A stretch of 35,578 nt of DNA from Candidatus Nomurabacteria bacterium (GTDB taxonomy: Bacteria; Patescibacteriota; Minisyncoccia; Phycocordibacterales; SBAW01). The translations under genes were made by a program, and so were the position numbers. Shown here one piece after another: positions 4,030 to 19,699 of this stretch. Position 1 is the first letter of the stretch, and every line of letters begins with the position of its first letter. Where the stretch lies: assembly GCA_020854065.1 (NCBI GenBank), contig JADZGF010000014.1, forward strand, positions 1-35,578, read 5' to 3'. Below the pieces are notes generated by a model, which was not told the origin of the DNA, did no database searches, and saw nothing but the letters and a program-made list of their open reading frames with translations.

Positions 4030-4683
4030 TTACGCTTCCCCCGACATTTTTATTGCAGGATCTTCGTCACCTCCCTCTTCGGGCTCTTCGGCGACAACGT
4101 CTACTTCTTCATTTGGCTTGCCAGCAGCGGCAGTGGCGCCAAAGCCTGGTATCCAGCTGCCCCCTTTGCCACCGCGGTATCCAATGAGGTAGTTTTTAGG
4201 ATCTTCGCAAATATCGATAAAGTCATCGACTGCTTCGCGCAATTGTCCGGATGAGGATTTACCAAACGCAATAACCTCTACTTGTACGCCATGCGTGTAT
4301 TTGAGGTACTCCACGAGCGGGACAAAATCTCCGTCGCCGGTTGCGAGAATAATTGCATCGAGTTTTTGAGCCTGGGCAATAGCGTCTATCGCCATACCAA
4401 TGTCCCAGTCAGCTTTTTTAGCGCCACCGGCAAATACACGGATATCTTTGACGCGCGTTTCAATGCCGAGCTTGTTGAGGGCGTCAAAAAAGCCCTTCTC
4501 TTCCTCGCTTTCAGTACGAATAACGTATGCAATGGCGCGAATGAGGATACGTCCAGCGACTGCCTCTTTCACTACCTGACCAAAATTTACCTTTGCTTTG
4601 TATAGATTCTTTGCAGAATGATACAGATTTTGCGTGTCTATAAAAATGCCGACACGCTGGCTTTTATGCTTGATGATTGCCAT
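4030..4683 (-). CDS. NYN domain (LabA/DUF88-type) putative nuclease
   Basis: VGIFIDTQNLYHSAKN ... DWDIGMAIDAI ... DAIILATGDGDFVPLVEYLK typical NYN/PIN-like acidic motifs. Confidence 0.85.
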   Translation of the reverse strand: MAIIKHKSQRVGIFIDTQNLYHSAKNLYKAKVNFGQVVKEAVAGRILIRAIAYVIRTESEEEKGFFDALNKLGIETRVKDIRVFAGGAKKADWDIGMAIDAIAQAQKLDAIILATGDGDFVPLVEYLKYTHGVQVEVIAFGKSSSGQLREAVDDFIDICEDPKNYLIGYRGGKGGSWIPGFGATAAAGKPNEEVDVVAEEPEEGGDEDPAIKMSGEA

Positions 4684-4804
4684 AAAAATTAGGAACACAC
4701 ACAGAATATGAATAAAAGGAACTGCCGACCTACAGCACAAAAAAGTATCCTACTTCAGTATACACGAAGAAGGGATGAATTTCTTTCAAAAAAGAGTGAA
4801 GACC

Positions 4805-5071
4805 CTACTTTTTAAGGCCGAGTTTCTTCACAATAGCGTCGTGGCGCTTTTTGCTTTTACCCTCTAAGTACTTAAGATGTGTGCGGCGATCCGCAACCAT
4901 CTGCAAAAGTCCGCGGCGGCTGTGCTTATCTTTAAGATGTTTCTTGAGATGCGAAGCAAGTTCGTCGATCTTCTTCGAAAGCAGCGCAATCTGCACCTCG
5001 GCCGAGCCGGTGTCAGTGTCGTGAATTGCGGTTTCTTTGACCGTTTTTGCTTTCTTCTGCTTCGTCAGCAT
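4805..5071 (-). CDS. rpsO: 30S ribosomal protein S15
   Basis: DTGSAEVQIALLSKKIDELASHLKKHLKDKHSRRGLLQMVADRRTHLKYL. Confidence 0.97.
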   Translation of the reverse strand: MLTKQKKAKTVKETAIHDTDTGSAEVQIALLSKKIDELASHLKKHLKDKHSRRGLLQMVADRRTHLKYLEGKSKKRHDAIVKKLGLKK

Positions 5072-5077
5072 GGCCCT

Positions 5078-5106
5078 ACTGTATCACAGCTCATTAAAAT
5101 GCGCAA
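5078..5106 (-). promoter_or_regulatory. Promoter of rpsO, leaderless configuration
   Basis: Minus strand TTGCGC-N17-TACAGT-N6-ATG. Confidence 0.6.
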
Positions 5107-5214
5107 GGGGTGCATTAGGTAGACCATTTAGCGTGCAATTTGGCAAAATCTACTATATGTTTGCGAATGTTTCTTCATACAGTATACAGATGAAGGGCAC
5201 AGTATATTGAGAGT

Positions 5215-7320
5215 ATGCCGATACACAAGGGACGCGGAGGTGCCCGAAAAATAACATTTAGGTTTTTGGTCGTGCTCTCTACTTTTTTGTTCGTAGCCGC
5301 AACATTTATTTTCTGCATTTCTCTCCTTGTGCCCTCTCCGCGCGAAGCGATTTCAGCAAATGCGGCCTATGAGTCGTATCATTACTACCAACTTCCTGAT
5401 CATCAAAAGAAAATTGCCCTTAGTTTTGACGATGGCCCTGATCCGGAGGCCACCAAAAAGATCGTGGACACCCTCACTGCTGCTGGTGTACCCGCCACCT
5501 TCTTCTTAATTGGTCAGCATGTGCTCGCGTACCCTGATCTTGCTCGCTATATTGTCGATAAAGGCTTCACGATTGGGAACCACACCTTTACGCACTCTCT
5601 ACGGGTACATGACTCGCCACAGCGACTTGCTGCTGAGTTGGCGGCAACTGATCGCATTATCGAGCGCGCCACAGGCGTGCGTACACGCTACTATCGCCCA
5701 CCCTACCTGCTCACCATTGGTATAGATCCCGCGCCTAATCCGTGGACATCGGAAGAGCCAGCAAACCTGTGGGCACTTCAGATGGGGTATGTACCCGTTG
5801 GTATCGATATTGACTCACATGATTGGGATGCAACGACGGCAGAAGGAATTATTCAGCGGTTTGAGCAAGAGATAAATGACAGTCGGCACATTGCACTCTT
5901 TCATGACGTGCCTCACACCGCAGAAGCGCTGCCAGAAATACTTTCCTGGCTTAAAGCAGAGGGGTATCAAATAGTGCCGCTTGAAGAGCTTTTGGTACCG
6001 ACTGCAGGTGTGCCACCTCTCTCCGAGGCATCTCTTTTTGTACCGGTCGAAACTGCATATCTCTACTTTCTCTCTCATGCGAACGTGGGTCTTGGTGCCA
6101 TTGGGGTACTTTTGTTAGGACTCCTTCTGTTGCGCATCTTTGTACTCATGAGTCTGCTCGCGCGAAAAAATCACGAAGCACCACCTCCACCGCTGAGTCG
6201 CTACCCTCTTATTTCGGTATTGATCCCTGCGTACAACGAGGAAGAAAACATTGAGTCAACGGTGCGGTCAGTCTTGCAGAGTGATTATCCTCGTCGGGAA
6301 ATTATTGTTATAGATGATGGCTCGACTGACTCAACTGCAGAGCGAGTACGTGCGTTGTGTAAACGGTATCCAAAAGTAGTTCGATTGCTTGAAGTGCAAA
6401 ATGGTGGAAAAGCTCGGGCACTCACCATTGCAACAGAAGATGCGCGAGGAGAACTTTTAGTGGTGCTCGATGCTGATGCGGTGCTTGAGTCCCATGCGCT
6501 CCACGCGTTTGCACGGCACTTTATCGATCCGCGTGTGGGTGCGGTGGCGGGCAAGGTATATACCACCGGCACTAGTGGATTGCTCGGTAAATTCCAAGCG
6601 CTTGAATATTGTGTTGGTCAAAACATTGAGAAGCGCGCGTTCTCTGCACTGGGGTTAGTGGGTGTCGTGCCTGGACCTGCAGGCGCGTGGCGTACTTCTG
6701 CAGTACGTGAGGCGGGGGGTTTTCCAACCGACACATTGGTTGAAGATCAGGACATGACACTTACACTCTTGCGACGGGGGTGGCGTATTAACTACGAGCC
6801 AACTGCAATTGCCTATACCGAAACACCCGCGACACTCAGTGCATTCTTAGCGCAGCGGTTTCGTTGGGTGTATGGCGGGATCGAATGCTTTTGGAAACAT
6901 GCGGCCGTTATTGCGGAGCAGCCGCGTACTGTGCTCGCGTTCCTCTTGATGCCACACAATTTTATATTTGGCATCGTACTTCCCGTTATGTACCCGCTCA
7001 TCGATCTCGTGCTCATCGTGAGTCTCTTTATGGGTTTCTGGAGCGAAGCGCTCATACCGATACTGATCTTTACGATAGTGGATATGTTGTACGTGGCGTG
7101 GGCACTGAATGGAGAACCGCGTCATCTGCAACGACTTGTCTTTGTGGTGCCGCTTCTACGTATCGTGTATCGACAGCTGCTCTACTACACCGTATTGCGT
7201 GGACTAGTCCGTGCCATCGAGGGAACCGGTTCTGCGTGGAATAAAGTGGCGCGACTTGGAGAGACGAAACGTTTCTTCGAGGAGCGTCTCGCAAAGGAGC
7301 ATCTTGCTATCTCCAAGTAA
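5215..7320 (+). CDS. Fused polysaccharide deacetylase (NodB) / membrane glycosyltransferase family 2
   Basis: N-terminal SFDDGPDPEATKKI...GNHTFTHS...RPPY (NodB) then PLISVLIPAYNEEENIESTVRSVLQSDYP...DDGSTD...EDQDMTLTLLRRGWRI...QRFRWVYGG (GT2 with QxxRW) and C-terminal TM helices. Confidence 0.93.
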   Translation: MPIHKGRGGARKITFRFLVVLSTFLFVAATFIFCISLLVPSPREAISANAAYESYHYYQLPDHQKKIALSFDDGPDPEATKKIVDTLTAAGVPATFFLIGQHVLAYPDLARYIVDKGFTIGNHTFTHSLRVHDSPQRLAAELAATDRIIERATGVRTRYYRPPYLLTIGIDPAPNPWTSEEPANLWALQMGYVPVGIDIDSHDWDATTAEGIIQRFEQEINDSRHIALFHDVPHTAEALPEILSWLKAEGYQIVPLEELLVPTAGVPPLSEASLFVPVETAYLYFLSHANVGLGAIGVLLLGLLLLRIFVLMSLLARKNHEAPPPPLSRYPLISVLIPAYNEEENIESTVRSVLQSDYPRREIIVIDDGSTDSTAERVRALCKRYPKVVRLLEVQNGGKARALTIATEDARGELLVVLDADAVLESHALHAFARHFIDPRVGAVAGKVYTTGTSGLLGKFQALEYCVGQNIEKRAFSALGLVGVVPGPAGAWRTSAVREAGGFPTDTLVEDQDMTLTLLRRGWRINYEPTAIAYTETPATLSAFLAQRFRWVYGGIECFWKHAAVIAEQPRTVLAFLLMPHNFIFGIVLPVMYPLIDLVLIVSLFMGFWSEALIPILIFTIVDMLYVAWALNGEPRHLQRLVFVVPLLRIVYRQLLYYTVLRGLVRAIEGTGSAWNKVARLGETKRFFEERLAKEHLAISK

Positions 7321-7981
7321 TATCAGAGGTCGTTACAATTTCCTTCCACGGCCCTTCCGGCACATCACGCTCATCTACAAACCGCCAGCTTGTGGTTGCG
7401 TTTGTTTCAAGTCCTAGACAGGTCCAGAGTGCAGGAGATATATCGAGCCCCGCGCGTACTCCGAAGGTATTTTTTGGTGTTGCGCTTTCACCAAATACAT
7501 ACACAAAGTCATCACTCTCGCCCGGTCCCACGTCTTGCCACTGTCCGTAGCATGTCTGAGTGCCAAAGCGTACCTCTATCCATCGATTCTTCAGCAAAGG
7601 TCGTCCATTATTAAGGACAGACGCCCAGGGTATCTTGGCGGCCGACTCTTTATATTGAGGAGCGCTGCCTTGGACAAACTCTCCATATGGCAGTGCGAAA
7701 TAGAACGGATTTTCTTTTGGAGTAAATGTGCAGGGGTGGTATCCGCAGCGGTACAGTGGGTCGTCAATTCCGCCAAAGTGCTCTTGCCAGTTGTTGTCCC
7801 AATAGCTTTCGTCGTTGGCAATATAGTCATTTGATGCGTCTGCTTCCTCCCCCACCCAAAAAAGGGTCGTTGTGGTAGATTTATATTCCCCTCGGGGCGC
7901 GGCGAATACCACCGCAGAGAGGTACACCAAAAGTGCAAGTGCAATGAGGGAGGTCCACAGGTATACAGGGCGGATGGTCAT
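7307..7981 (-). CDS. Hypothetical secreted/anchored protein, possibly double-psi beta-barrel-like
   Basis: N-terminal signal/TM (LWTSLIALALLVYLSAVVFA); DVGPGESDDFVYVFGE...GVRAGLDISPALWTCLGL resembles RlpA-type barrels weakly. Confidence 0.55.
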   Translation of the reverse strand: MTIRPVYLWTSLIALALLVYLSAVVFAAPRGEYKSTTTTLFWVGEEADASNDYIANDESYWDNNWQEHFGGIDDPLYRCGYHPCTFTPKENPFYFALPYGEFVQGSAPQYKESAAKIPWASVLNNGRPLLKNRWIEVRFGTQTCYGQWQDVGPGESDDFVYVFGESATPKNTFGVRAGLDISPALWTCLGLETNATTSWRFVDERDVPEGPWKEIVTTSDITWR

Positions 7982-8015
7982 ACAGTCAACAATTACCTAG
8001 CGATTATAAACTACC

Positions 8016-8228
8016 ATGAAGACGGATCAGAAAGATAGATTTTGGCGATGGTTTGGATTCTTTTTTGCAGCAAGCATAGCAGCATGTTTTGTGGTGGTAT
8101 TTGTGTTGATCGAATTTCGCACGTTTGAGCTTGAGGTAGTGGCTGCTGAAGCACTGCCCACAGAGCAACCATCCAGCGAAGCGTGGTGGGTCACACCACC
8201 CTACTACCCTGCCTTTCAACCGTGGTGA
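8016..8228 (+). CDS. Small single-TM protein
   Basis: 70 aa, TM FFFAASIAACFVVVFVLIEF; -10-like TATAAA 5 nt upstream of ATG. Confidence 0.55.
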   Translation: MKTDQKDRFWRWFGFFFAASIAACFVVVFVLIEFRTFELEVVAAEALPTEQPSSEAWWVTPPYYPAFQPW

Positions 8229-8259
8229 TTGTTAATAAAAGGGGAGCGTCGCACAATAT

Positions 8260-9174
8260 ATGTGCCACACTGAGAGAGTGGCCGCAAATGAACTGCAAAA
8301 GTTAAAGACTCAGTTTTTAGAATATTTGGAAATTGAGAAAGGTCGTGGCGTGAAGACCATTGAAAACTATGACCGCTACCTTTCGCGCTTTTTAGCACAC
8401 AGCAACCTCTCCTCCCCTGCTCGGATCACTGAGGCTTCCGTGCGTGAATTTCGCGTTCATCTCAATCGCTCGGGGCTTAAGCACAAAACGCAGAATTTCT
8501 ATATGATCGCCTTGCGCGCGTTCTTAAAGTTTTTGCGCAAGCGTGAATATGATTCCCTTAATCCTGAAAAGATTGAATTGGCAAAGATTGGTCAGCGCGA
8601 TCTTGATCTCATTTCTCATGACGAGCTCGACCGTTTAATGAAAGGACCGAAAGGCAATACGCTGAGTGATTTGCGCGATAAAGCGATACTCGAGCTTTTC
8701 TTCAGCACCGGTTTGCGTGTTTCGGAATTATGCTCGCTTAACCGGGACCTCGATCTCTCTCGCGATGAGTTTAGCGTACGCGGCAAGGGAGAGAAAGTGC
8801 GGGTGGTGTTTCTCTCGCCTGAAGCCAAAGCGGCCATTAAAGCATACGAAGCAAAGCGTGGTGATGTTGATGATGCGCTGTTTGTCCAAATGGGCAAGAA
8901 TGCAAAAAATACAAAAGATCTCCGCATCACACCACGCTCAATCGAACGATTGGTGAAGCGCTATGCCATTAAAGCAGGTATTACGCGTAAAGTGACACCG
9001 CACGTTATTCGTCACTCCTTTGCCACCGATCTTCTAGAAAATGGTGCAGACCTACGCTCTGTGCAAGCAATGCTTGGCCACGCGCATATTGCCACGACAC
9101 AGGTATACACCCACGTCACCGACAAACATTTACGCGATGTGCATAAAAAGTTCCATGGGCAGCGGAGAAAGTAG
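8260..9174 (+). CDS. Tyrosine recombinase XerC/XerD-like
   Basis: SAM-like N-terminal domain; GLRVSELCSL...HVIRHSFATDLLENGADLRSVQAMLGHAHIATTQVYTHV (R-HxxR-H-Y). Confidence 0.93.
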   Translation: MCHTERVAANELQKLKTQFLEYLEIEKGRGVKTIENYDRYLSRFLAHSNLSSPARITEASVREFRVHLNRSGLKHKTQNFYMIALRAFLKFLRKREYDSLNPEKIELAKIGQRDLDLISHDELDRLMKGPKGNTLSDLRDKAILELFFSTGLRVSELCSLNRDLDLSRDEFSVRGKGEKVRVVFLSPEAKAAIKAYEAKRGDVDDALFVQMGKNAKNTKDLRITPRSIERLVKRYAIKAGITRKVTPHVIRHSFATDLLENGADLRSVQAMLGHAHIATTQVYTHVTDKHLRDVHKKFHGQRRK

Positions 9175-9199
9175 ACCCCGCACTATGTATGCGGGGTCT
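9174..9199. terminator. Bidirectional intrinsic terminator between xer-like gene and convergent ORF
   Basis: GACCCCGCA-ctatg-TGCGGGGTC. Confidence 0.65.
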
Positions 9200-9497
9200 T
9201 CGTGGTGTACTCGTTGGTAACGAGCTCTTTTTTATGCTCAGTCTTGAGCAGTGTTTCGGCTTTCTCAAGCACTTCCTTCGGACATTCTGAAACATGGTGT
9301 AAGAAGTGTAGAAGCTCCCGAGAGACATCATCTTCGAACACATAGACGCTCTTAAAGAGCTCGTATTCTCGGATACCTGCGCGCTCTGCGAGCGCATCCA
9401 GAAGATCGTTTGCTTCTTTGGCGCGTTCACACGCAGCTTCACTGAGTGGTGCGGTTGGTATAACCCCAAAGAGTCGAGCCGCCTCTTCTTTCGTCAT
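9183..9497 (-). CDS. Hypothetical protein
   Basis: Start MTKEEAARLFGV preceded by AGGAGGT SD on minus strand. Confidence 0.6.
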   Translation of the reverse strand: MTKEEAARLFGVIPTAPLSEAACERAKEANDLLDALAERAGIREYELFKSVYVFEDDVSRELLHFLHHVSECPKEVLEKAETLLKTEHKKELVTNEYTTKTPHT

Positions 9498-9573
9498 TGT
9501 GTACCTCCTATACGGATAACTACCAAAAAAAGGAAGAAGATTCAATAAAATGCCTCTATGCTATCCTACTCTC

Positions 9574-10377
9574 ATGAAGTTGGTTTCCTGGAATGTAAAC
9601 GGCATACGGGCAGTCGTGCGGAAGGGCGATTTTCAGGAGTTTGTGCAAAAACACAAACCTGATGTGCTGTGCCTGCAAGAAACAAAAGCGGAGCGTGGCC
9701 AGGCACAGATAGACCTACCCGAGTATGAAGAGTTTTGGCATAGTGCCGAAAAAAAGGGCTATAGCGGCACGGCTATTTTTGTAAAGAAAGGTATTGAGGT
9801 TGTTGATGAGATGCATGGTCTGCCAGAGGATTTGTGTAAAAAGTACAAACTGCATCAAGATGAGTATGGGGACCCGAACAAAGAGGGTCGCGTTATTGCA
9901 CTCGAACTTGAAGACTTTTTTGTCGTTACCGTCTACACTCCAAACGCCAAGGATGATCTTTCACGCATTCCTTTGCGTCATAAGCAGTGGGATCCGGCGT
10001 TTCTCGAATACATGAAGCGTCTCGAGAAGGAAAAACCAGTAGTATTTTGTGGTGACCTCAATGTGGCGCACCAAGAGCAAGATCTTGCGAACCCTAAACC
10101 GAATATGGGCAAGAAAGGCTTTACCCAGGAAGAGCGCCAAGGTATCGACCATATGATTAGTGCAGGATTTGTAGACTCCTTTAGGCACTTTACCCCTACG
10201 GGTAATGGCCACTACACCTGGTGGAGCCATTTTGCTCTCTCCCGCGAACGCAATGTTGGCTGGCGTATCGACTATTGGTTTGTGTCTAAAAAACTTCTCC
10301 CCCACCTCAAGAAGGCCGCTATTCTTGCAGACGTCATGGGTTCTGACCACTGTCCTGTTGTTATAGAGCTAAAATAG
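9574..10377 (+). CDS. xth: Exodeoxyribonuclease III
   Basis: MKLVSWNVNGIRAVVRKG, LCLQETKAE, CGDLNVAHQEQDLANPKPN, GWRIDYWFVSKKL, GSDHCPVVIELK. Confidence 0.96.
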   Translation: MKLVSWNVNGIRAVVRKGDFQEFVQKHKPDVLCLQETKAERGQAQIDLPEYEEFWHSAEKKGYSGTAIFVKKGIEVVDEMHGLPEDLCKKYKLHQDEYGDPNKEGRVIALELEDFFVVTVYTPNAKDDLSRIPLRHKQWDPAFLEYMKRLEKEKPVVFCGDLNVAHQEQDLANPKPNMGKKGFTQEERQGIDHMISAGFVDSFRHFTPTGNGHYTWWSHFALSRERNVGWRIDYWFVSKKLLPHLKKAAILADVMGSDHCPVVIELK

Positions 10378-10392
10378 CTTGTAAAATAGGTA

Positions 10393-10460
10393 CTTTACAA
10401 CTAGTTTACAACTAAAATTATGTACATTGACAACTAATAATTAGGTAGTTTACAATACTA
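10393..10460 (+). promoter_or_regulatory. Phased direct repeats (TTTACAACTA-type) overlapping a sigma70-like promoter
   Basis: TTTACAACTA at 10394 and 10405, TTGACAACTA at 10427, TTTACAATACTA at 10449; -35 TTGACA 10427-10432, -10 TACAAT 10451-10456 (18-nt spacer), ATG 7 nt later. Confidence 0.65.
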
Positions 10461-10463
10461 GGT

Positions 10464-11489
10464 ATGGACAAATCTGATGTCCTCAAGATTGCTCGCATAA
10501 AGAAAAAAATGAAGACCAAAGACTTGGTCTTAGCTTTTGGCGTGTCACGCCAATATGCGAGTGTAGTAACAAATATGCTTGTACAAGAGGGCCGACTCTT
10601 AAAAGTTGGTTCCACTGCAGGTGCTTACTATGTTCTTCCTGAGCTCGCAAAAAGTTCAGGCATGTTCCCTATTAAGATAGTCCGTCGACTAAAAAATAAA
10701 AACCTTGCCGAACATGAAATATTGCCAGAACTCGAGAGTCAATATCCTCCAATTGGTCGTTTGCCTGAGAATGTAAAAAGCATCCTTGTGTATGCATTTT
10801 CAGAAATGCTCAATAATGCTATTGACCACTCTGGATCAAAGGATATCGAAGTCGAGATATCGGTACATAATCGTAAGCTGCAATTCGTGGTCAACGACTT
10901 CGGTGTCGGCGTGTTCCGTAATGTCATGAATAAACGACACTTAAAGGATGAGACAGAAGCTATGCAGGACTTACTAAAAGGCAAGACGACTACCGCACCG
11001 CATGCGCATTCTGGAGAAGGTATCTTTTTTACGTCAAAGACGGCTGATGTCTTTACTCTGCAGAGCTTCGGGCATGTTTTGGTAGTTAATAACAAGGTCC
11101 ACGATGTTTTCTTTCGCAGAGTGCCTGCTCGTAAGCGTGGCACGAGGGTTAAATTCACTGTGGACTTGCGGTCCACAAGGCACCTTAATGATGTGTTTAA
11201 GGCGTTTACAAGCGATAGTGAGCCCGATTTTAGTAAGACTGAGATACAGGTCCGCCTTTACACTATGGGCGGTGTCCATGTGTCACGATCGCAGGCGCGA
11301 CGTATATTGGCCGGATTGGAGAAATTTAAAGTTGTCATACTCGATTTTGATAAGGTCCCGATGATCGGTCAAGCGTTTGCTGATGAGATATTTCGGGTTT
11401 TTAAAAACAGATACCCGGATATAGATATACGACCCATCAACATGTCTGAAGGGGTCAAATTTATGGTAGATCGTGTGGCAAGAGTATAA
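10464..11489 (+). CDS. wHTH - GHKL ATPase (HATPase_c) - STAS-like DUF4325-type protein
   Basis: N-terminal wHTH (KTKDLVLAFGVSRQYASVVTNMLVQEGRLLKVG), N-box/G1 (FSEMLNNAIDHSG...NDFGVG), C-terminal VVILDFDKVPMIGQAFADEIFRVFKNRYPDIDIRPINMSEGVKFMVDRV. Confidence 0.8.
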   Translation: MDKSDVLKIARIKKKMKTKDLVLAFGVSRQYASVVTNMLVQEGRLLKVGSTAGAYYVLPELAKSSGMFPIKIVRRLKNKNLAEHEILPELESQYPPIGRLPENVKSILVYAFSEMLNNAIDHSGSKDIEVEISVHNRKLQFVVNDFGVGVFRNVMNKRHLKDETEAMQDLLKGKTTTAPHAHSGEGIFFTSKTADVFTLQSFGHVLVVNNKVHDVFFRRVPARKRGTRVKFTVDLRSTRHLNDVFKAFTSDSEPDFSKTEIQVRLYTMGGVHVSRSQARRILAGLEKFKVVILDFDKVPMIGQAFADEIFRVFKNRYPDIDIRPINMSEGVKFMVDRVARV

Positions 11490-13749: not shown

Positions 13750-14287
13750 CAAAAACAACAGAACCTATCAGACATCTAGGGTGGGGATAGTAGATTCGTT
13801 GGAAATTAAGGGAAATCCCCTATTTCTGTGGATAAGGTTGGGGACATGTGCATTAAAGACACCCTAAAAGCCTGTCCTTCAGGATTTCTTCAGGTAAAAA
13901 GTAGCACGTGAAACGTTGCACGTGAACCGGGGGTATAAAGGGTAAAAATACAGTATTTAGAGGTGTCGTATAGGTAAAATCCTGAAAAACCCTTATAAAT
14001 AAAGGTTTTTCGGTCGCTGTAGGGATAAAAACCTGTGTTTTAGGGTCAAAATGGGCAAAAGAGGGCGGAATGACTATGTTTTATGGATGGTAAGGTAGCG
14101 TTACACGTGAACCAGCAGGATTAAAGGCTCTATAGCTAAGTCGGAATGTTTCGGGTGAAACGGTGTGGCATATTGGTCTGGTATATATACACAGACCATG
14201 ATATCCGTAAGATTCAGGTCCGAATGTTCGAAAACATGATATTATAGGCTTGTTTTAGGGCGGAAAGCATAAAGGACATAAAAGACA

Positions 14288-14358
14288 CGGGGCGTAGTAT
14301 ACCGGTAGTACACCTGCTTTGGGAGCAGGTAGACTGGGTCCGATTCCCAGCGCCCCGA
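14288..14358 (+). tRNA. tRNA-Pro(TGG)
   Basis: CGGGGCG...CCTGC-TTTGGGA-GCAGG...CTGGGTCCGATTCCCAG-CGCCCCG; no encoded CCA. Confidence 0.94.
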
Positions 14359-14359
14359 C

Positions 14360-15217
14360 ATGAATAGAGTTACGTTAACTGCTAAACCTACAGAAGGGTA
14401 TTCTTTGTTAGATTCTGGACAGGAGGAAAAGCTCGAGCGCTTTGGAGATGTACTTTTAGCACGTCCAGATCCTCAAGCTCTATGGCCAAAGCATCTTGAA
14501 GAGGGGGAGTGGACCAAAGCCCAAGGTCGCTATGAGCGTAAAAACAAAGAGGGGGTGTGGCATGCGCAGAATTTGCCTGAAGAATGGCAGATACAATATG
14601 GCGGCTTCACTTTTCTCATTAAACCGACATCGTTTAAACATACGGGGCTATTTCCCGAGCAAATCTCCAATTGGGAGTGGATTCAGGAAAATATTACACT
14701 TGGAGCAAAAGTATTAAATCTTTTTGGATACACCGGAGGTGCGAGTCTTGCTGCCGCTGCTGCAGGAGCAGAGGTAACTCACGTTGATGCATCGAAGACT
14801 GCCGTATCCTGGGCAAGCGAAAACGCAAAGTTAAGCGGGTTAGGGGAGAAGCCTATCCGTTGGATAGTCGAAGATGCTATTTCATACTTAGAGCGCGAGG
14901 TTAAGCGTGGCAACAAATACGATGCGGTCATTATGGATCCGCCGGCATTTGGTCATGGTCCCAAGGACGAATTGTGGAAATTTGAGGAACACTTCCTTAC
15001 GCTTATGCGTTTAGTGGAGGAATTATTGAGCGACAAACCACTGTTTGTGCTTATTAACGGCTACGCAGCAGGCTACTCGCCACTTGCGTTTGCGTATAAC
15101 CTAGAGTCGCTTACAAAAAAATATGGCGGAAATGTCGAATATGGCGACTTGGCTATAGCAGAGGAGGGAAGTGAACGCGTTCTACCCTGTGGAATCTTTG
15201 CGCGGTGGAGTGTTTAG
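14360..15217 (+). CDS. Class I SAM-dependent methyltransferase, RlmI/RlmK-like
   Basis: GAKVLNLFGYTGGASLAAAAAGAEVTHVDASKTAVSWASENAKLSGL...YDAVIMDPPAFGHG. Confidence 0.9.
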   Translation: MNRVTLTAKPTEGYSLLDSGQEEKLERFGDVLLARPDPQALWPKHLEEGEWTKAQGRYERKNKEGVWHAQNLPEEWQIQYGGFTFLIKPTSFKHTGLFPEQISNWEWIQENITLGAKVLNLFGYTGGASLAAAAAGAEVTHVDASKTAVSWASENAKLSGLGEKPIRWIVEDAISYLEREVKRGNKYDAVIMDPPAFGHGPKDELWKFEEHFLTLMRLVEELLSDKPLFVLINGYAAGYSPLAFAYNLESLTKKYGGNVEYGDLAIAEEGSERVLPCGIFARWSV

Positions 15218-15948
15218 ATCTTCTGCCAAACCATTTCAAAAATTTCTTTTACTGTTTTAGCAACTTCAGCATTTTCGAGCACTATTCCCTGTAGATTTTT
15301 ATAATCGTGGATACGGACGCAATTTCCTATCACGTCCATAGCGATTTGGGAGGAAAATTGCTGGTGGGGGACTGTTTTAAATTTCGCTCCTATCTGCGCA
15401 TCACGCTTGCGGTATTCTTCAAGTGATGCATGTTCGGGTGCTATGCCACGCATGGTTATGTTTATCTTGTGCCGTTTTTCGTTCCACTCTGTAAAATAAT
15501 CGGTCAGCTCTTTCGGCAAATGCTCACTCGTCGCATAAAATCCGACTACCTCTTTGTTTTTGTTTTCTGCAAATCCGTATTCCATAGCCTGCTCCAGACC
15601 GGCTATTCCTTCGAAATGCGTCGTTTTGACTCGAGACGTGTTGTTGGCGAACTCTCTCATGAGTTCGGGCAGTAAATTTTCCGCCTCAGCGATTCCTCGT
15701 TTGACTTCGTGTACGAAATCGTCAGGAGATTGAGCGCGGAACATTTGTTTCTTAGACCCGGGCATCTTTAATACCAACCCGCGTTTACGGAGATCCTCCA
15801 AAACCACGTAGGTAGTAGGTCGTTTAAGGCCTGCGGCACGGGCTACAGCGTTTGCTGACCCTTGCCCAAGGGTGAGTAGACCTAAGTAAACTCGGCTTTC
15901 TTTGTCGCTTAACCCTAGTTTTTGGAGGGTATTGGCTTGGTTTGGCAT
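15214..15948 (-). CDS. TrmB-family transcriptional regulator
   Basis: N-terminal wHTH LGLSDKESRVYLGLLTLGQGSANAVARAAGLKRPTTYVVLEDLRKRGLV; effector-like C-terminal domain. Confidence 0.88.
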   Translation of the reverse strand: MPNQANTLQKLGLSDKESRVYLGLLTLGQGSANAVARAAGLKRPTTYVVLEDLRKRGLVLKMPGSKKQMFRAQSPDDFVHEVKRGIAEAENLLPELMREFANNTSRVKTTHFEGIAGLEQAMEYGFAENKNKEVVGFYATSEHLPKELTDYFTEWNEKRHKINITMRGIAPEHASLEEYRKRDAQIGAKFKTVPHQQFSSQIAMDVIGNCVRIHDYKNLQGIVLENAEVAKTVKEIFEMVWQKI

Positions 15949-15954
15949 GGCTCT

Positions 15955-15983
15955 AGTATAGAGCCAGTCTCTATTTCTGTCAA
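15955..15983 (-). promoter_or_regulatory. Promoter of TrmB-like gene, leaderless configuration, with inverted repeats
   Basis: TTGACA (15983-15978) N17 TATACT (15960-15955) N6 ATG; ATAGAG-ccagt-CTCTAT and TGTCA-ataaaaa-TGACA overlap it. Confidence 0.65.
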
Positions 15984-16060
15984 TAAAAATGACAACAATC
16001 TATATATGTCTTTAATATATTGATAAATAAGGCTAATTTGGACACTGTCTAGGCAGTATT

Positions 16061-16146: not shown

Positions 16147-17310
16147 ATGACCTATTCCTCGAGACTGCTGGCCGATCCCGCCTTTATGGCGATCGATGCC
16201 TGGCGCCGGGCCACGATCCTGGGAGAGAGTCGCGAGGAACTTATCCAGGCGCTCCTGCGCCGGGAAGTCCCTCCCCTCATTTCCTGGATCGTACGCGGAG
16301 GTTGCGCGGTGCAGTGTGAACACTGCATCTTCCCGTTCGAGGGACCGAAAGGTCACTCAGACAGGATCAGCACGGAGATAATGCTCTCCTTGTTGGCGCA
16401 GCTTTCGGGACGAGGGAATCTGGTACACGAAGGGAGGCAACTCCTGCCGTGGCAGATACCCGTCCTCGCAGCGGCGAAGCGTGCAGGCCATGGCGTGTCG
16501 GTCATTAACAATGGCCAATACGCTACGCCGAGCATGCTCGCGCTTTGTGACCACCATGGTCTGAAAGTCGACGCACTCGATGTGTCGATCGACGGGCCGG
16601 AAGCGGTACACAATCTGCAGCGCAACCATGCGAACGCATGGCGTTGGGCGATGAATGGTCTGGCAGAGGGTCGGCGCATTGCCGACAAGCTCACCAGTCT
16701 CTTCACCCTAACGGCCCTTAACTCGGAGCATGTGGCGGAAACCGGCAAGATTGCCGGCGACCTCGTCGATGAATGGCACCTGACAACCATGTCAGTGCGG
16801 CCAGGCATCGAACACATGCTGCCGACGCGTTCACAATTGAGCGCGGCATTGGACCAACTTGCGGGCCTGCGGCTTGGGATTCCGGTATATCTCCGGAGTT
16901 ACTCGCTGCAAGGCTTCGTTGCACTTTGCGAGGTAATTGGGAAAGAGGCAGTGCGTAAGGCGCTGCGGGAGGCACAAGTCATTGATATGACACCCAGCAA
17001 TGGGATTGTGCTGAACGTAGAGGGTATCAACCTCTATTTCTACCCCAAGAGCCTCCAGTGCAACGAGACGCTGGTTGTTGATGCTGATGGGTGGTGGCGA
17101 CTTCCTTTTAGTGTGGCGCACACTTTGGATGAACTCCAATGTGGGCAAAGCACCGAAGGGGACGACCTGTCTCACTTCAGTATCGCACCAGTGTCCGAGA
17201 AGTTGGATGTGGCTGAAGTCTATGCGCGCTCCACCGTAGGGTGGTGGCAGGCGGTAGGCCGAAAGTCCTTCAATGAGGAACGGGTTGCTGTGGAGCGACT
17301 CCTGGCATGA
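16147..17310 (+). CDS. Radical SAM protein
   Basis: CX3CX2C motif GGCAVQCEHCIFPFEG, followed by a TIM-barrel-compatible sequence (VINNGQYATPSML; ALDVSIDGPEAVH); AGGAGG SD at about 16136. Confidence 0.88.
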   Translation: MTYSSRLLADPAFMAIDAWRRATILGESREELIQALLRREVPPLISWIVRGGCAVQCEHCIFPFEGPKGHSDRISTEIMLSLLAQLSGRGNLVHEGRQLLPWQIPVLAAAKRAGHGVSVINNGQYATPSMLALCDHHGLKVDALDVSIDGPEAVHNLQRNHANAWRWAMNGLAEGRRIADKLTSLFTLTALNSEHVAETGKIAGDLVDEWHLTTMSVRPGIEHMLPTRSQLSAALDQLAGLRLGIPVYLRSYSLQGFVALCEVIGKEAVRKALREAQVIDMTPSNGIVLNVEGINLYFYPKSLQCNETLVVDADGWWRLPFSVAHTLDELQCGQSTEGDDLSHFSIAPVSEKLDVAEVYARSTVGWWQAVGRKSFNEERVAVERLLA

Positions 17311-17365: not shown

Positions 17366-17398
17366 CGGAGCGGGTTGATATCCCGCTTGGCACCAGAA
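17366..17398 (+). repeat. Island hairpin repeat, copy A
   Basis: CGGAGCGGGTTGATATCCCGCTTGGCACCAGAA; stem AGCGGG/CCCGCT; extended structured region continues to about 17530. Confidence 0.85.
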
Positions 17399-17593
17399 GC
17401 TCTGAGTACTCGCAAGAGGCAGTAGGAGCAAAACTATCAACCGACTGGGGGGAAGCAATTTCTCCCCTCTGTTGAGAATTTGATTCGCCAGCCGGCGGAG
17501 TTCGAATTTTCATCGAGACAAGTTCTTTTACAGCATGAACACGGCTTGGCAATCCCGCTAAGCTGCCCTCTAACCAAAGAAAGGAGGTGAAAC

Positions 17594-17650
17594 ATGGCAG
17601 CTGCGAACACTGGCTCGACCGGTGTGGGCAAGCCTCGTCCTCCCAAGTAG
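17594..17650 (+). CDS. Micropeptide 1: MAAANTGSTGVGKPRPPK
   Basis: AAAGGAGGTGA SD at about 17580-17590; 14/18 aa identical to the peptide at 17754; conserved codons that differ do so synonymously. Confidence 0.82.
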   Translation: MAAANTGSTGVGKPRPPK

Positions 17651-17680
17651 GGGGCGGAGTGAGCCATCCTGAGTAAGACT

Positions 17681-17709
17681 CGGAGCTTGGGTAGAGCTTG
17701 GCAACAGAA
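17681..17709 (+). repeat. Island hairpin repeat, divergent copy D
   Basis: CGGAGCttgggtagaGCTTGGCAACAGAA: same flanks, replaced hairpin interior. Confidence 0.7.
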
Positions 17710-17753
17710 TCTGCCCACTGTTCTTGCAACAAATCTGAAAGGAGGTGATTGCG

Positions 17754-17810
17754 ATGTCGGGAGCCAATACTGGCTCGACTGGGGTGACACAACCCCGTCC
17801 GCCGAAGTAA
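17754..17810 (+). CDS. Micropeptide 2: MSGANTGSTGVTQPRPPK
   Basis: AAAGGAGGTGA SD at about 17738-17748; paralog of peptide 1; stop codon inside a GCCGAAG-taa-GGGCTTAAGCCCTTCGGC stem-loop. Confidence 0.82.
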   Translation: MSGANTGSTGVTQPRPPK

Positions 17811-17842: not shown

Positions 17843-17875
17843 CGGAGCGGGCTGATATCCCGCTTGGCAACAGAA
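17843..17875 (+). repeat. Island hairpin repeat, copy B
   Basis: CGGAGCGGGCTGATATCCCGCTTGGCAACAGAA; extended structured region to about 17960. Confidence 0.85.
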
Positions 17876-18005
17876 ACAAAACTATCACCACTGGGAGAAA
17901 GTAATTTCTCCCCTCTATTGAGAATCGGATGTATCGGATTCTCATTGAGATTCGTTCTTTCAAACTTAAACAGGCCATACCGGCCAACAGCCTTAGGAGG
18001 GCAGA

Positions 18006-18542
18006 ATGGTCAACTTGATTATCGTCGTTGAGGACAAGCGGGAAGAACAAGAGCGGGCCCTCGAGGCAATCAAGCGCTCCCTTGGCGATGTCGAGGAAAT
18101 AAGCGAAGAGAAAGGCGGGAGAGTAAATCTCTTCCGTGACTGCCCGAGCCCGATGGTGGCACTGAAATCGCCAGACGGTGGTGGCACACTGATACACTTC
18201 GCTGCAACTCTTGAAATAGCGGAGATACGCCTGAACTCTGTGCGCAGTTTCGCCAACTGCCTGCAGAAGGTTGGTGTCATAACCGACCTGATGTTCCCCG
18301 CAAAATGCGGTGGAAAGGAGGAGCCAAATGGGCTTGGCATTATTGCCAAGTGCATTGAGGCAAAGTTGCGCGTAGTGGTCTGTAGCGATATCGACCATCA
18401 CGATGTCGACTGGCTGCGCCCTATCTTCCCAATCTTGGGGAAGGCGCATCCGACTGGCGATGTTCCTGTCATTCTGGACAAGAAAGACTGGGACAAAGCC
18501 GTCGCCCTCCTTGCTGACACACCTGTGTCGGCAGCAGCCTGA
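18006..18542 (+). CDS. Divergent response-regulator receiver-like protein
   Basis: IIVVEDKREEQERALEAI (acidic pocket-like), GVITDLMFP (phospho-Asp-like), RVVVCSDID, VILDKKDWDKAVALL (Lys-like); AGGAGG SD 5 nt before ATG. Confidence 0.6.
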   Translation: MVNLIIVVEDKREEQERALEAIKRSLGDVEEISEEKGGRVNLFRDCPSPMVALKSPDGGGTLIHFAATLEIAEIRLNSVRSFANCLQKVGVITDLMFPAKCGGKEEPNGLGIIAKCIEAKLRVVVCSDIDHHDVDWLRPIFPILGKAHPTGDVPVILDKKDWDKAVALLADTPVSAAA

Positions 18543-18548
18543 CGAGTT

Positions 18549-18581
18549 CGGAGCGGGCTGATATACCGCTTGGCAACAGAA
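18549..18581 (+). repeat. Island hairpin repeat, copy C
   Basis: CGGAGCGGGCTGATATACCGCTTGGCAACAGAA, then ACAAAACTATCACCG shared with copy B. Confidence 0.85.
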
Positions 18582-18600: not shown

Positions 18601-18631
18601 CAACCGTCGCTACCAAGCGGCGGTTTTCTTT
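18601..18631 (+). terminator. Intrinsic terminator closing the radical SAM island
   Basis: ACCGTCGC-taccaa-GCGGCGGT followed by TTTCTTTTT. Confidence 0.75.
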
Positions 18632-19699
18632 TTAATCTTGTAATGCGTCGACGAGTTTTTGAGTAAGTGCAGGAGCAACATCTTCTTCAAACGTTATTGC
18701 TTTGCTTTGTATATTGCCGGTTAAGAGATCAGCAAGTGATCCAAGACCTGCCGCTGCAAGAGAACGCTCGATATGCGCTATTGATATTGCACGCAGATCG
18801 CGTTCACCAGTGGTGCCTTTTAATACCGCTGTACTAATGAGCCCGGCTAGAGTGCCATCCATACGCACTGCAGCGCCGCCTGAAGAGCCTGACTGCGATA
18901 TAATGGATCCTCCGACGGAAAAGAGATCAGTATGCGAGGTGTCGTCATATGTATATTTTTGTAATACCGAAACAAATGCGGAAGTAGGGTAGAGGTTTTC
19001 AGCAATAACTTCTCCTGAGAGAAAGCCTGCAGGATATGCTGCAAGCAGCATTCGTTCGCCACTTTTAGGAGTCGCTGCGCTATAGGGGAGATAGGGCAGG
19101 GTATTGTTTGTTTTTGCTATTAAAAGTGCAAAGTCATTCTCTCCAGTACCTTTTGCGTTATCCGCATCAATTTGATTTGCGTTTTTCTCTACCCACTCAG
19201 GCGATACATACAAAACCTGTATGTCGTAGAGAGGTACTGCAGGTGAGCCGCCGCGGATAGTGCAGCTAATGTTGCCTTTGCGCGGATAATCGCGCAGCAA
19301 AATGTATTGCGCGATATGTGCATTGGTAAGTACAACGCCGCGTGGATCTATGACTACACCGCTACCTGAGAGTGGCTTGAACTCTCCGCCTGCCTTCGTG
19401 GTGCAGAAAATATTAACAAGGGCTGCGCGGGCGCGGGTGTTAAGTTCGGTGTCGATCAAACCATCAGTCTGAGGTTCTGGTTCTTCTTCAGTAGTATCTG
19501 TGGGAGTGGAAAGAGAGACGTCTGCCTCTACAACTGTTTCTTGCTCTTCGGGGGCTGCAGTGGGGAATTGCTCTGTGGCCACGGGAGTGACAGAAGTTTC
19601 TGTGTGGGTTGGGGCTGTAGCGGGGAGTGTTGTTAAAAGCCCAACCGAAAGTGCGGCTGCAGTAAGCACCATAAGTACTAGTGCGTGTAGGAGCGACAT
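18632..19699 (-). CDS. Trypsin-like (S1/HtrA-type) serine protease, membrane anchored
   Basis: Catalytic His (VLTNAHIAQ), Asp (ENDFALLIA), Ser (ISQSGSSGGAAV); N-terminal TM. Confidence 0.88.
   Translation of the reverse strand: MSLLHALVLMVLTAAALSVGLLTTLPATAPTHTETSVTPVATEQFPTAAPEEQETVVEADVSLSTPTDTTEEEPEPQTDGLIDTELNTRARAALVNIFCTTKAGGEFKPLSGSGVVIDPRGVVLTNAHIAQYILLRDYPRKGNISCTIRGGSPAVPLYDIQVLYVSPEWVEKNANQIDADNAKGTGENDFALLIAKTNNTLPYLPYSAATPKSGERMLLAAYPAGFLSGEVIAENLYPTSAFVSVLQKYTYDDTSHTDLFSVGGSIISQSGSSGGAAVRMDGTLAGLISTAVLKGTTGERDLRAISIAHIERSLAAAGLGSLADLLTGNIQSKAITFEEDVAPALTQKLVDALQD

Follow-up and report, generated by a model that had tools for sequence, protein, structure and literature searches.

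A stretch of 35,578 nucleotides from a Candidatus Nomurabacteria bacterium (contig JADZGF010000014.1 of a 620-kb genome), referred to here as the window, carries a gene for a radical S-adenosylmethionine (rSAM) enzyme, presumed to be a peptide maturase (positions 16147–17310, forward strand, 387 amino acids). Directly downstream on the same strand are two very short genes that encode peptides of 18 amino acids, namely peptide gene 1 (MAAANTGSTGVGKPRPPK; 17594–17650, stop codon TAG) and peptide gene 2 (MSGANTGSTGVTQPRPPK; 17754–17810, stop codon TAA). Together, these genes form one operon-like arrangement that is closed by an intrinsic terminator (18602–18625, forward strand), consisting of a 10-bp stem followed by TTCTTTTTAA. 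Divergent from the operon, on the reverse strand, lies a gene for a TrmB-family transcriptional regulator (15214–15948; Pfam PF01978, 7.1e-16), the sole homologue of this family in the window's genome.

Two short open reading frames (ORFs) had been proposed in a first-pass annotation of this DNA, and both are found at exactly the positions given there. A recount also agrees with its comparison of the two peptides, which share 14 of 18 residues, with synonymous differences in 7 of these 14 codons and a different stop codon. The Shine-Dalgarno (SD) sequences, described earlier as near-maximal, are in both cases the full 11-nt AAAGGAGGTGA on the forward strand (17580–17590 for peptide gene 1 and 17738–17748 for peptide gene 2). 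There are three copies of this sequence in 610 kb of the window's genome, two of which are these SDs, and among the ATG-initiated micro-ORFs of 12–40 amino acids in that genome, only the two peptide genes are preceded by the full 11 nt.

The differences between the two genes are concentrated at third codon positions, with 3, 2, and 12 nucleotide changes at positions 1, 2, and 3, respectively. Random placement of the same 16 changes retained 14 identical residues in 14 of 100,000 trials. When three independent tandem pairs are considered (those of the window and of two related loci, L055 and L053, described below), third positions account for 25 of 36 changes (binomial p = 1e-5). A chance origin of the paired peptide ORFs is excluded and, as judged from sequence, both 18-residue genes are real. 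The purifying selection on the peptide that had been claimed earlier is now backed by the randomization, by the third-position bias, and by short ORFs with an N-x-G-S motif at 12 other loci. This part of the first-pass annotation stands, but neither the rSAM enzyme nor the regulator was recognized in it, so that the probable role of the peptides was missed as well.

Recurrence of the peptide with the enzyme and the regulator

Homologues of the rSAM enzyme were sought by the enzyme alone, blind to peptides, in about 1,900 genomes and one scan of GTDB contigs, and their flanks were read afterwards. Short N-x-G-S ORFs accompany distant homologues (23–69% identity) at 12 further loci, which belong to distant Patescibacteria and one Hyphomonas, giving 13 peptide-bearing loci with the window. 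Nonsense or frameshift changes, which would have spoken against selection on the peptide, were not seen in these related loci, the sole flaw being an extra copy at L055 with ATA in place of ATG.

The motif ORFs occur as tandem genes or as fused repeats. At L055, in a metagenome-assembled genome from a pond (rSAM identity of 69%), the peptide is MAAANTGSTGVTRPRPVR, and the second copy, at 5543–5602, has an SD-like site and ATA for a start codon (IRAISNTGSVGVTRPRPVR). The genomes of L052 and L053 belong to the same order as that of the window; L052 (39% identity) encodes MAGANTGSAGVGKPRRPKKGKK, preceded by AAAGGAGGTGA, and L053 (31% identity) encodes MAAANAGSAGKGRKATPVVPPVTGK and MICDSISNSGSAGKGRKATPVVPPVTGK. 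The peptides of L085, L086, L107, and L108 are MAGANAGSTFRGKPQAPTKIKPPPKPRHPSK, MAGANTGSAGAQRSPKKLPKTRSKTKKK, MSGANTGSKGSRNGGANTGSVGS, and MINNSQKVKNNASNCGSKGGELENRKK, respectively. Longer ORFs are found at L057 (a single one of 62 amino acids with three units, GANSGS, TNIGS, and SNIGS), L087 (44 amino acids, with GANTGS and GANTGT), and L109 (37 amino acids, with LANAGTSG). The genome of L087 also contains a second paralogue, L111, where the peptide MASVAGSKGGVKKPPKKPKKEK is preceded by AAAGGAGG. L054 is truncated by a contig end. In Hyphomonas (L059, 23% identity), the peptide starts with MAAANSGSVGRGKPFVVDS and has 64 amino acids, its ATG overlaps the stop codon of the rSAM gene, and both genes lie amid oligopeptide ATP-binding cassette (ABC) importer genes (4296–10757; fused ATPases, SBP_bac_5, and two permeases). 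No further member was found in 200 genomes of the Hyphomonas order.

Co-occurrence was also observed in genome samples. Among 389 genomes drawn evenly from the phylum, four have a strong rSAM homologue (E ≤ 6e-85), and the degenerate pattern M[AST][GA]AN.G[ST] matches those same four genomes and three more. The three extra matches are due to chance: they have no SD, two of them are inside longer open frames, and a reversed control pattern also gives three matches. The probability of the exact four-with-four coincidence is 1e-9. Similarly, in a draw of 392 genomes of the class, homologues of at least 179 bits occur in four genomes besides the window's own, with a candidate peptide in all four. 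Next to the 20 weaker rSAM matches, no SD-led N-x-G-S peptide was found within a 1.5-kb flank, save for a chance frame over a tRNA-Gln gene, in a motif search that would miss diverged forms (L082/L111 being an example). Overall, the peptide and rSAM system is present in about 1% of the genomes sampled.

A TrmB gene is located beside the enzyme gene in 11 of 15 loci (the window, L052–L055, L057, L085, L107–L109, and L111), the ten regulators outside the window being orthologues of that of the window. Of six regulators, five score above the gathering threshold of PF01978, with that of L053 slightly under it. The intergenic region between the regulator and the operon of the window contains a palindrome with a fixed 7-nt spacer, GTCAATAAAAATGAC (GTCA-N7-TGAC; 15979–15993). 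An exact GTCA-N7-TGAC is present in 7 of 11 such TrmB/operon intergenic regions, against a simulated mean of 0.007 and a maximum of 1 in 2,000 rounds. In the window, the palindrome overlaps the TTGACA (−35) of a promoter-like site of the regulator's own gene (15983–15955). GTCA-N7-TGAC is a candidate operator, to which a TrmB-type protein would bind.

Probable role of the peptides and the enzyme

The rSAM enzyme contains a CX3CX2C motif (C53, C57, and C60), and these cysteines are retained in every alignment row that covers the region. Its score against Pfam PF04055 is under the family cut-off and no NCBIfam model, those for SPASM included, reaches or comes near its own cut-off. The best profile match among solved structures is SkfB (E = 4e-10), a maturase of ribosomally synthesized and post-translationally modified peptides (RiPPs). 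An AlphaFold model with a predicted local distance difference test score (pLDDT) of 86.5 resembles DesII, SkfB, BlsE, SuiB, and ChlB in Foldseek, and, as its matches are to rSAM enzymes, the protein has the rSAM fold. A function in defense was rejected, as PADLOC yields just weak viperin-like rSAM scores.

Considering these observations, the two ORFs are most probably tandem precursor peptides that the upstream rSAM enzyme modifies, and would represent a new RiPP family. The sequence features behind this view are the translation signals, the selection on amino acids, the operon-like layout with its terminator, and the co-occurrence of the peptide, the enzyme, and, mostly, the TrmB-type regulator across distant genomes. 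As in rSAM RiPPs generally, a putative precursor recurs beside a presumed maturase (13 loci), and the latter has both CX3CX2C and the rSAM fold. The enzyme would make a 5′-deoxyadenosyl radical and abstract a hydrogen within the N-x-G-S motif, while the variable tail, rich in Lys, Pro, and Arg, could allow the peptide to be recognized, to be cleaved, or to bind a target. By binding to GTCA-N7-TGAC, the TrmB-type regulator probably switches both its own gene and the operon. From the patchy distribution and the tandem duplication, it may be guessed that the cell probably releases the product, as a peptide for communication or antagonism.

In 20 motif units of the form N-x-G-[S/T], Gly is present in all, Asn in 19, and Ser or Thr in all (Ser in 18), and another Gly follows two positions after Ser in 16; tandem or fused copies contribute many of these units, which, consequently, are not independent. 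Between Asn and Gly, any of T, A, S, I, and C is found. The C-terminus of the peptides is variable and their conserved part is N-terminal or internal. Because this motif is the sole conserved part and is found in multi-motif fusions, with up to three repeats per ORF, the core that is modified is likely this motif rather than the tail. Neither Cys nor any of Trp, Tyr, Phe, and His is conserved in the 20 units, and no conserved Cys outside CX3CX2C was found in 10 enzyme homologues, including those expected for C-terminal auxiliary clusters. Thus, thioether and cyclophane chemistry are unlikely as the shared reaction. Similarly, side-chain chemistry on the residue between Asn and Gly, for instance the formation of cyclopropylglycine (PMC9062424), is unlikely because that position varies. 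The remaining chemistry would include Asn, Gly, or Ser, and may be an epimerization, an oxidation, an O- or N-linked crosslink, or a backbone change; the data favor none of these.

Comparison with known systems shows both likenesses and differences. Radical SAM RiPPs such as those of SkfB and the sactipeptides, SuiB and streptide, the daropeptides, and the triceptides (PMC9055067, PMC9062424) also combine a short peptide gene with one rSAM gene, and, among peptide maturases, SkfB, SuiB, and ChlB are nearest to the present enzyme in profile and fold. In contrast to them, the enzyme has no recognized RiPP recognition element (RRE) and matches no NCBIfam model at its cut-off, and the precursors, of 18–64 amino acids, have their conserved part mostly at the N-terminus. 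The C-terminal auxiliary Fe-S cysteines that define SPASM-domain maturases are absent from the 10 homologues, and the 20 motif units have neither the core Cys with which sactipeptides and ranthipeptides form thioether bridges nor the conserved core aromatic residue of cyclophane peptides (triceptides, streptide, and daropeptides). TVG peptides, whose enzyme TvgB is linked to poly-cyclopropylglycine (PMC9062424), are similar in that an rSAM enzyme accompanies short Gly-centered repeats, TVGG there and N-x-G-S here. However, the Val is modified in TVG peptides, while T, A, S, I, or C occupies the equivalent position here, and the dioxygenase and transporter genes of those loci are missing in the Patescibacteria loci. 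The Hyphomonas locus, with its rSAM and peptide genes among those of an ABC transporter, is reminiscent of RiPP loci with such transporters, for instance that of darobactin (PMC9055067), but its transporter belongs with the oligopeptide importers (SBP_bac_5 and BPD_transp_1), and no transporter was recognized in the Patescibacteria loci. This single case hints that a peptide from outside, perhaps a signal or a chelator, would be taken up.

Predicted RiPP clusters have been described in bacteria of the Candidate Phyla Radiation, likewise reduced and host-dependent, but these encode graspetides, which are matured by ATP-grasp ligases instead of rSAM enzymes and have unrelated precursors (PMC8939145). 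No ATP-grasp ligase is present among the window neighbors searched in Pfam; those of other loci were read as ORFs and not all were searched. Very small precursors have a precedent in the biarylitides, which are said to have the smallest one reported (PMC12951456). No literature was found on this family, or on TrmB, radical SAM, and a precursor peptide together, in a search whose coverage left out subscription journals, and the peptide family is apparently undescribed.

Several points weigh against the precursor–maturase view. In contrast to most SPASM RiPP maturases, the enzyme has no auxiliary-cluster cysteines and no recognized RRE. Its fold matches are modest, with template-modeling (TM) scores of about 0.5, and include enzymes that do not act on peptides (DesII, BlsE, and viperin). 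In addition, no dedicated exporter or leader peptidase was recognized in the Patescibacteria loci, the L086 and L109 ORFs have no clear SD, and the rSAM gene of L110 (82 bits) has neither a peptide gene nor a TrmB gene beside it. The ATA-start copy of L055 may have decayed, may use a rare start codon, or may result from an error in the assembly.

It is also conceivable that the translated peptides have a functional link to the rSAM enzyme without being its substrate, acting instead as a regulator, inhibitor, or partner subunit of an enzyme for a small molecule. The small-molecule enzymes DesII and BlsE among the top Foldseek matches, the lack of SPASM cluster ligands, and the basic, Pro-rich tails, which could bind nucleic acid or a membrane, would be in keeping with this. 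Nevertheless, tandem copies, multi-motif fusions (L057, L087, and L107), and variable tails suit a substrate better than a subunit, and the best PDB profile match is a peptide maturase, which makes this alternative unlikely. A cofactor precursor similar to PqqA, for pyrroloquinoline quinone, or MftA, for mycofactocin, which would also be a modified peptide, though of a special kind, is very unlikely. Although a very short precursor with a single rSAM enzyme is found in both situations, and PqqA is of similar size to these peptides, here there is no conserved Tyr, Glu, or other oxidizable side-chain pair, the genes occur in tandem and fused copies and in about 1% of genomes only, and no cognate dehydrogenase was recognized next door.

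Gene order bears on another alternative, namely that the ORFs are regulatory leader peptides controlling downstream genes by attenuation or ribosome arrest. Each is short, with a strong SD and a Pro-rich C-terminus, whose PRPPK end is reminiscent of proline-rich peptides known to bind within the ribosome tunnel. Moreover, at L085, L086, and L108, the peptide gene comes first and is separated from the enzyme gene by a terminator-like hairpin, an arrangement that would also give the precursor in excess of the enzyme. However, at L052, L107, and L111, the enzyme gene comes before the peptide gene, which is last and has a terminator-like hairpin directly after it, so that no gene is left to control; this led to rejection of the attenuator reading for the family as a whole. 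Since gene order varies between loci, a fixed leader-peptide role is ruled out, and, with the C-terminus variable and the L107 peptide lacking a Pro/Lys tail, such control is highly improbable. Finally, that the similarity of the peptide genes reflects a non-coding DNA or RNA repeat is scarcely credible, for even if hairpin elements recur in the same region, the changes fall at third positions, the stops differ, and the protein motif survives where DNA similarity is lost.

Because the motif has none of the residues used in thioether and cyclophane RiPPs, the enzyme may perform peptide chemistry not yet described. The precursors are easily overlooked, as ORFs so short are usually skipped by annotation pipelines. 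For the way in which host-dependent Patescibacteria, presumed to live on other bacteria, communicate or compete with so few genes, the set of a regulator, an enzyme, and an 18-residue peptide, which recurs in many families, is a compact candidate. The complete picture, that is, a new rSAM RiPP class with an undescribed N-x-G-S modification, an enzyme without auxiliary clusters, a signal or weapon of Patescibacteria, and a dedicated TrmB-type switch, is tentative and falls slightly short of being probable.

Hairpin elements and surroundings of the operon

In addition to the genes, a hairpin element of the form CGGAG-stem-loop-stem-TTGGCAACAGAA is found within about 60 nt after operon genes. In the window, all copies are on the forward strand, 3′ of the rSAM gene (17366–17398; CGGAG-stem-TTGGCACCAGAA), peptide gene 1 (17681–17709), peptide gene 2 (17843–17875), and an ORF of 178 amino acids that is last in the operon (18549–18581). 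The L055 copies are at 5633–5660, 5818–5845, 7200–7228, and 8059–8090, and the last of them overlaps the end of the last ORF. Stem letters vary and pairing is retained in several copies; MAFFT misplaces these variable stems in alignment. Among eight genomes searched, the element is present only in this cluster of the genomes of the window and L055. It is perhaps involved in mRNA processing or stability. The repetition of post-gene elements is also suggestive of an integron-like cassette array, with the elements confined to this cluster in these two genomes.

Several genes are preceded by two consecutive strong hairpins and then a GTTCTTTCAA-like stretch, which reads as a shared leader architecture (17440–17520 and 17888–17960 in the window, 5855–5930 in L055, and 2490–2590 in L053). 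For instance, GGGAGAAAGTAATTTCTCCC is followed by a second helix that pairs CTCTATTGAG with CTCATTGAG.

The last ORF of the operon (18006–18542, forward strand, 178 amino acids) is of no recognized family, with no match in Pfam, NCBIfam, PHROGs, or PADLOC and no significant one in PDB, and no counterpart was noticed at other loci. The G+C content of the operon is about 51–61%, compared with 49.7% for the whole genome and about 45% just upstream, and 34 other genomes of the window's genus yielded no comparable rSAM enzyme; because of both, horizontal acquisition of the operon would fit. A phage origin was rejected, as the operon has no match in 50,697 phage records and IMG/VR has neither an rSAM relative nor the hairpin-element pattern. 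A plasmid search with the rSAM protein of the window gave no match, and a plasmid link through the Hyphomonas protein was discarded because its weak plasmid matches are generic rSAM proteins.

Convergent with the operon is a gene for a trypsin-like serine protease (18632–19699, reverse strand; Pfam PF13365), which was not noticed at other loci and is probably unrelated. Farther away, between tRNA-Gly and tRNA-Pro, some 500 nt without an obvious gene (13780–14290) contain recurring motifs, such as CACGTGAA and GGGTAAAA.
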